NCBI GenBank assembly: GCA_024280855.1
Contig: JAJRPG010000058.1
Span: forward strand, 91,504 to 155,503
Direction: 5' to 3'
DNA from: Planctomycetota bacterium
GTDB taxonomy: Bacteria; Planctomycetota; Phycisphaerae; UBA1845
Length of the DNA: 64,000 nt
Of this stretch, positions 46,425 to 47,889 are shown piece by piece. The notes beneath the pieces are model-generated. The model did not search any database. It saw only the letters and a program-made list of their open reading frames with translations, and had not been told where the DNA came from. Both the position numbers and the translations under genes were made by a program. Each line of letters begins with the position of its first letter. Within the stretch, counting starts at the first letter, position 1.

Positions 46425-46712
46425 TCAAATTGGCTCACCACATTCTGGGCATCGGGGTTGAGAGAGTCCCCTGAGAATGTGGCTACATTTACGACAGCGG
46501 GTTTCGCCATCACCGCGGGCTGCACAGAGCGTTACGAGCACCCAGCCAAGACCACACATAGCCGTGAACGCAATTGGTATCATTCGCGCAATATACTGGG
46601 AAAAATCATAACTTTTGGTTATTATCCGGCGATTGCTGTACGCAAAATAAATCCACATGATCGCGGTCAGAACGCTCAACGCAATAGTGACAATTCCGTT
46701 TATCTTTCGCAT
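46425..46712 (-). CDS. Small membrane protein with C-terminal zinc ribbon
   Basis: From ATG 46712 the protein has 95 residues; the frame continues to TTG 46733, which would sit inside the terminator of the upstream gene. It has two membrane helices (VTIALSVLTAIMWIYFAY and MIPIAFTAMCGLGWVLVTL) and ends in a zinc ribbon, CRKCSHILRGLSQPRCPECG. This ribbon (CxxCxYxLRGLxxxRCPECG type) is repeated across many membrane proteins of Phycisphaerae-like planctomycetes. Function unknown. Confidence 0.65.
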   Translation of the reverse strand: MRKINGIVTIALSVLTAIMWIYFAYSNRRIITKSYDFSQYIARMIPIAFTAMCGLGWVLVTLCAARGDGETRCRKCSHILRGLSQPRCPECGEPI

Positions 46713-46731: not shown

Positions 46732-46770
46732 AAAAAGGGCCTGCCTCATCTCTCATCAATAAGGCAGGCC
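46732..46770 (-). terminator. Intrinsic terminator of the Cys-rich secreted protein gene
   Basis: GGCCTGCCT (46738-46746) pairs with AGGCAGGCC (46762-46770), a perfect 9-bp GC-rich stem with a 15-base loop. On the minus strand a T-run of five follows (46736-46732). It lies 20 bp after the stop of the 46790-47611 gene, so it is well placed to end that transcript. Confidence 0.8.
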
Positions 46771-46789: not shown

Positions 46790-47611
46790 CTACTTTCGAT
46801 TTGTTATACACTGAGCCAACTCTTGCTCTGTACCTTTGAGGCAAGCCTTTAATCCGCCAGGGTCTCCCGCAAAGACATTTTCACAAGCATCCCGGTTTTG
46901 TCCCAGCTCATCCTTACAAATCTTGAATGTTCGCACGGACAACGGCGCTCTTAGAAACAACGGTGACGTTTCCCCATCCCCCGCTCCTTTCACTCTCCCG
47001 CTAGCAGGGCGTTCAACGCTATCTATCGTCACCTGCATATCCTCAGCTTTGTCGAGAATTAAATGTAGTGTGAACAGAACATGCGCTGGCGAAATACGTG
47101 AAGTCCCAGCCTTGAAATCTATTGAACTTAAAAATCTTTGGACCACGCCGGTGCCCACGCAAACCCAAAACCCCTCGGAGTCTTCTTCACCCGGCGTGAG
47201 TAAGGCGTTGGCGCATGCCTCTATGTTGTCCAGCGCGTTCAGTGTGGGTTTATTAAAAGGAGCCTGGGCCTCAACCGTTGATATAGTATCTCGTGTAGTT
47301 TGACCGACGTTTTTAGGGCTTCGCACCGCAATACTGGTGGGAATACAGGCCCTCATACAGTCCGAACTTTTGCAATCGGAGAAACACTCCGCCAGTTGCG
47401 TCCGCTGCTGCTTGGCCTTGGCGGCAGCTTCGATGCTTGCGGCGTCACGGGCCACACGTCGGATGCAGTCCTCAAAACTCTCGCCAGAATCTCGTACACC
47501 AAAACAATTGGCCGAAGCTTCCGCAACGGCATCCGGAGTTTGTTCGTCCGCATAAATACTTGTAGCAATCCCCATCCCAAACACAGCTACCAAAGAAATG
47601 ATCATTTTCAT
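46790..47611 (-). CDS. Secreted cysteine-rich protein, unknown family, under a candidate phase-variable promoter
   Basis: A 273-residue protein with a signal peptide (MIISLVAVFGMGIATSIYA). The mature part has about a dozen cysteines in CxxxCxxxxC-like spacing (CFSDCKSSDCMRACIP near residue 75; CKDELGQNRDAC near 232), suggesting a disulfide-rich fold. No family was recognised. ATG 47611 has AGGGAG eight bases upstream. The promoter region holds a 16-base homopolymeric tract between -35 and -10 boxes, and an intrinsic terminator follows the stop, so it is a stand-alone transcription unit. Confidence 0.65.
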   Translation of the reverse strand: MKMIISLVAVFGMGIATSIYADEQTPDAVAEASANCFGVRDSGESFEDCIRRVARDAASIEAAAKAKQQRTQLAECFSDCKSSDCMRACIPTSIAVRSPKNVGQTTRDTISTVEAQAPFNKPTLNALDNIEACANALLTPGEEDSEGFWVCVGTGVVQRFLSSIDFKAGTSRISPAHVLFTLHLILDKAEDMQVTIDSVERPASGRVKGAGDGETSPLFLRAPLSVRTFKICKDELGQNRDACENVFAGDPGGLKACLKGTEQELAQCITNRK

Positions 47612-47676
47612 AACTCGTACTCCCTTACAGAATGTGATGCGAATTCGAGTGGTCCCCCCACCCGAACGATCTGCAA

Positions 47677-47713
47677 GCTATAATTTCGTCCCCCCCCCCC
47701 CCCCCATTGTCAA
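47677..47713 (-). promoter_or_regulatory. Candidate phase-variable promoter with 16-bp poly-G spacer
   Basis: On the minus strand a perfect TTGACA (47713-47708) is followed by AT, sixteen Gs (47705-47690), ACGAAAT and the TATA-like hexamer TATAGC (47682-47677). The spacer is now 25 bp; eight fewer Gs would give the ideal 17 bp. The start codon at 47611 is 65 bp further. A shorter G-run (GGGTGGGGGG) lies in the leader. The geometry matches poly-G/poly-C switches that change expression by tract slippage. Confidence 0.6.
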
Positions 47714-47750
47714 GGAAAAAACACAAAAAAATTGTTTTATATGCCGTTTT

Positions 47751-47889
47751 TCACTAAAACCGAGCGGCAAGCGCCAGCGCCCCGTGTTTTTATGAACTGT
47801 AAAGGCCCTACAGTCCAATCGTGTTTCGCAACATCTTAACCATCCCAAGACACGGGGCGCTGGCGCTTGCCGCTCGGATTTAGTAGTGA
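47751..47889. repeat. Long perfect inverted repeat (28-bp arms)
   Basis: CCGAGCGGCAAGCGCCAGCG plus CCCCGTGT at 47760-47787 is perfectly complementary to 47850-47877, with a 62-base spacer, and weaker complementarity (TCACTA and TAGTGA) extends outward on both sides. It could form a strong stem or be a MITE-like element. No coding frame fits. It lies between the phase-variable promoter and the thioesterase gene. Confidence 0.75.

Follow-up and report, generated by a model that had tools for sequence, protein, structure and literature searches.

A poly-G run as promoter spacer and candidate phase-variable switch of a secreted protein gene in a planctomycete

Here, we asked what role a run of 16 Gs plays upstream of a gene for a secreted protein in a planctomycete genome, within a window of 64,000 nt (the whole stretch of DNA that was analysed). 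We propose, with a probability of roughly two in three (0.68), that this gene has a sigma-70-type promoter whose spacer is the G run and which is switched by slippage: the length of the run would set the distance between the -35 and -10 elements and hence promoter strength, slipped-strand mispairing at replication would add or remove Gs, and the distance would move into and out of a working range of about 17-20 nt, so that some cells would express the gene strongly and others weakly or not at all. The role of the G tract as a promoter spacer is well supported; phase variation at this spacer is likely, judging from the sequence, and we infer that tract lengths change fast enough for switching within a population. 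The original prediction of a phase-variable promoter has stood in part: the spacer role of the tract and the secreted product are supported, tract length does vary between copies, and the arrangement recurs in the lineage in a strand-specific manner, but the proposed -10 element and the number of Gs to be lost are not supported as first stated.

On the minus strand, the promoter region reads TTTTTTCC-TTGACA-AT-G16-ACGAAATTATAGC, i.e., the T tract TTTTTTCC (47714-47721) directly 5′ of the -35 hexamer TTGACA (47708-47713), followed by the G16 tract (47690-47705; its length taken from one assembly), which forms the main part of the -35/-10 spacer. Downstream of the tract come ACGAAAT and then TATAGC (47682-47677), so that TTGACA, 16 Gs and TATAGC with a 25-nt spacer (47707-47683), as originally described, are indeed present. 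As a -10 element, TATAGC is less likely: it matches the consensus at 4 of 6 positions but lacks the final T and is not conserved in congeners. Given this lack of conservation in the alignment, AATTAT (47680-47685; spacer of 22 nt) is favoured as the better -10 candidate; at the same position 3′ of the tract, the congeneric loci and the window have TATTCT (twice), TATACC and AATTAT, at spacings of 15, 22, 18 and 22 nt, respectively. The promoter would then carry three to five Gs in excess, rather than the eight whose loss had been thought necessary. The -10 is weak under every assignment tried, and because the 22-nt spacing with AATTAT is at the long end of the range, the assembled state is predicted to be weak or OFF. 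With either hexamer, a homopolymer of at least 8 nt separates -35 from -10, and the same holds in congeneric copies.

The ATG of the 273-aa open reading frame (46790-47611, minus strand) lies 78 nt downstream of the G16 run and is preceded by the ribosome-binding site AAGGGAG (47620-47626), with AGGGAGAG at the equivalent site in congeners. Just 3′ of the expected transcript start, an inverted repeat (47643-47667) may form a hairpin in the 5′ leader (z -2.5); hairpins made of different bases occur in two congeneric leaders as well (z -2.2 and -1.5). The product is, as anticipated, Cys-rich and preceded by a predicted signal peptide, with 12 Cys in its mature part. Its gene is followed, on the same strand, by an intrinsic terminator (46738-46770; a 13-pair stem with a T run) and a gene for a small membrane protein with a C-terminal zinc ribbon (46425-46712), which likewise follows the congeneric G-tract cassettes. 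An ortholog of the secreted protein, 55% identical, is encoded in one congener, and none was found in the other congener or in 57 further relatives; searches of Pfam, NCBIfam and PDB assigned the protein to no family, Rfam yielded no matches in the window, and the AlphaFold model, built with three sequences, is poor (pLDDT 43). An inverted repeat located 40 nt upstream of the -35 (47753-47884; 38-nt arms, ACTAAAACCGAGCGGCAAGCGCCAGCGCCCCGTGT, and a 56-nt loop) is not part of the switch; it is a dispersed repeat, of which the genome contains about 20 more copies, full or half, and a diverged copy is also present upstream of another G tract, on contig C102.

The run goes beyond what chance would give. 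Pattern searches, by which all genome-wide work was done, identified G16 as the longest G run in the 4.56-Mb genome, which has five runs of at least 12; the window contains one other G8 run, and shuffled sequences are expected to yield 0.89 G8 matches. Three congeneric genomes together contain 25 runs of at least 10 Gs; TTGACA lies at most 8 nt upstream of five of these, against 0.055 expected by position counting (25 × 9/4096). A run of different placement, G13, lies inside the signal-peptide codons of another secreted protein gene in the same genome (locus L009, 1501-1513; C46:31991-32003); with 13 Gs, the reading frame from the ATG is out of register, the signal peptide of congeners is in frame and free of a G tract, and the run is a candidate translational switch.

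Searches for TTTTTCCTTGACA and for G runs together with CCTTGACA uncovered five loci in two congeneric genomes that share the T tract, the -35 hexamer and an identical flank, TTTTTTCCTTGACAA, and differ in their G tracts: G16 in the window, G12 after CCCCC on C102 of the same genome, and three tracts in genome G002, of which the one at the ortholog of the window gene is interrupted (GGGGAGGGGG, G4AG5) and the others are G11 and G13. Thus, the comparison of tract length across related genomes that had been suggested as a check gives 16, 12, 11, 13 and an interrupted tract behind an invariant -35 flank, a difference between otherwise identical promoters that is seen between paralogs and species. 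Because the interrupted tract of the ortholog in the closest genome should slip little, switching is not conserved at this particular gene. The secreted gene is missing from the C102 cassette, and this gene and promoters of this kind are both absent from the third genome of the genus. The gene on C104 of G002 has in common with the window gene the signal peptide and the small downstream gene, and the mature proteins are essentially unrelated; the cassettes L075 (289-1348) and L021 share the leader, the signal peptide and the 3′ zinc-ribbon gene and encode essentially unrelated mature secreted proteins. Separately, two congeners carry an apparently orthologous tract of G11 or G10 flanked by TATAGCCTGG and TAGGAGG (L123, G000 C109:3882, and L109, G001 C80:49283).

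The arrangement is concentrated in the family, yet it is found outside as well. Of 51 family genomes, 11 have TTGACA followed within 0-8 nt by G10, at about 20 loci in all, and neither the reversed pattern nor the strand control with C10 in place of G10 occurs even once among the 51; in a sample of the phylum, 21 of 392 genomes contain it, compared with 5 for the reversed control. A scan of the genome collection for TTTTCCTTGACA plus G8 recovered, beyond the congener, scattered single matches in other phyla, several of which have the same layout and no relation to the window locus. Unrelated metagenome-assembled genomes from other phyla (L084, L089, L093 and L096) have TTGACA, a run of G11-G16 and an abutting -10, the L084 promoter being TTGACA-ATTTAA-G16-TATAAT. 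At L222 (G368 C12:244195 and 247318), two neighbouring paralogous genes for Cys-rich secreted proteins each stand behind TTGACACTT-G11/G12 with TAGACT at a spacing of 16. Finally, TTGACATC-G13/13/15-CTTGGTAGGCTGA is repeated near contig ends in two genomes behind unrelated upstream sequence (L176, L177 and L179), and resembles the terminus of a repetitive or mobile element.

A -10-like hexamer (A at position 2, T at position 6 and at least 4 of 6 matches; typically TAGACT or TAGAAT) begins no more than 4 nt from the tract at 25 of 47 distinct TTGACA loci, a few of them from outside the phylum and detected by the TTTTCCTTGACA plus G8 scan, compared with 3 of 22 tracts without TTGACA (p=0.0015); two or three family loci (G030 and G066) and the C102 copy are without an abutting -10. 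A -10 could be assigned at 32 planctomycete loci (by alignment in the window and the second C11 locus of G002, and by rule elsewhere); there, the spacing is 14-22 nt with a median of 19, and tract length varies inversely with the non-G part of the spacer (Spearman -0.56, p=0.0009), which keeps the spacing near 18-20 nt across loci. Permuting the tract lengths raises the variance of the spacing from 4.9 to 9.6 (P=0.0026); the trend loses strength when the test is confined to the 15 family loci (P=0.06). Thus, spacer length appears to be constrained through compensation between its G and non-G parts, and this compensation is the strongest sign of selection on the -35/-10 distance itself. The spacing preferred by ordinary promoters was not readable from 201 other TTGACA sites, where the signal was too noisy.

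According to a home-made heuristic predictor (with start codons set by rule or by visual inspection, and with some paralogs, a few, among the loci), the first gene below the tract encodes a signal peptide at 27 of 39 loci, the window gene being likewise positive, compared with 26 of 126 flanking genes (p=4e-8); the fraction is 14 of 16 in the family loci and 10 of 48 among genes of the window. Several of the products are small and Cys-rich.

Could the spacers be tuned without being switched, their length being adjusted over evolutionary time and stable within a population, with no ON/OFF states? Selection for a fixed working distance would be expected to leave just such a compensation towards about 19 nt, the tract of the ortholog carries a stabilising A, and mismatch repair is present. 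However, a pure run of 10-17 Gs makes a poor stable spacer, such tracts being generally hypermutable (PMC5084427), a link to secreted products as strong as this is what contingency genes typically show, and in both G035 and G195 paralogs with near-identical flanks differ by a single G (11 versus 12), so that we regard tuning alone as unlikely. Loss of mismatch repair as the cause of instability was itself rejected: the genome encodes MutS, and a general repair defect is therefore not the explanation.

The coding-strand runs are all of G and none of C, which invites another interpretation, namely, that a G-quadruplex or R-loop on the non-template strand blocks transcription or promotes gene conversion between the cassettes with a common leader, signal peptide and downstream gene. 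A run of 16 is long enough for four G3 runs, and the congeneric cassettes combine a shared signal peptide and 3′ gene with unrelated mature proteins. Moreover, 12 of 38 TTGACA-poly-G tracts in the family and phylum are no more than 320 nt away from a contig end, versus 0.95 expected by chance, an excess that fits repeated or heterogeneous sites. Yet a quadruplex requires neither an abutting -10 nor a compensated distance from TTGACA, and a G10 tract on its own is too short for folding, which makes this interpretation quite improbable. Still harder to defend is the idea that the tracts are a by-product of chance G-run expansion in the lineage, with the promoter decaying: a G13 run did arise within signal-peptide codons that lack it in congeners, and the C102 cassette has lost its secreted gene, but the window ORF is intact, and strand and position bias relative to matched controls, the abutting -10 and length compensation are unexpected under neutral expansion. 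An assembly or sequencing artefact, such as the poly-G produced by two-colour Illumina chemistry, can be dismissed despite the apparently draft source (112 contigs) and the uncertainty of homopolymer counts in assemblies, because the tract is contiguous within a 160-kb contig and the same flank with G tracts recurs at paralogous loci and in the assembly of another species.

The reading that we prefer, a poly-G spacer promoter switched by slippage, has close parallels. In Neisseria meningitidis, homopolymers of at least 8 nt are predominantly variable (PMC5084427), and the poly-G between -35 and -10 of porA alters their spacing (PMC7864442, PMC2791445); the poly-G spacer promoters of porA and of Treponema pallidum respond to length (PMC7864442). 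The tp0126 gene of T. pallidum, encoding an OmpW homolog, has the same poly-G between -35 and -10, its length setting the spacing and thereby transcription, with an optimum of 17 nt and, as here, a surface or secreted product (PMC7864442). It differs in belonging to another phylum and in that the dependence of expression on tract length is measured there and predicted here; furthermore, the planctomycete spacings cluster at 18-20 nt, in a layout common to many unrelated loci. The porA case is a single locus encoding an outer-membrane porin, with switching proven there and predicted here. In Neisseria opc, the tract is coding-strand poly-C and reaches the -35 (PMC7864442), whereas only coding-strand G was found here. 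Relative to porA and tp0126, then, the planctomycete promoters stand apart in their lineage, in the many unrelated loci, in the exclusive orientation of G and in a spacing near 19 nt. Both opc and Bordetella fim share with them a promoter-region homopolymer that changes the expression of a surface protein. In Bordetella fim, the coding strand carries poly-C. A search of the openly licensed literature found no report of phase-variable promoters in Planctomycetota; the mechanism is of a known kind, in a lineage for which we found no description of it.

Most known cases of promoters switched by G or C runs come from host-associated pathogens, in which they are usually explained by immune evasion. 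We put at even odds the broader proposition that environmental planctomycetes possess a set of contingency loci in which coding-strand G-run spacers, usually with an abutting -10, independently switch unrelated, often Cys-rich secreted proteins. If true, lineage-wide switches in these environmental bacteria would have to be explained by another selective force, be it phage, grazers, neighbours or surfaces, and counts of Gs in metagenome reads would provide a simple read-out of switching. Such loci would amount to a bet-hedged secretome beyond the host-associated bacteria in which switches of this type are known.
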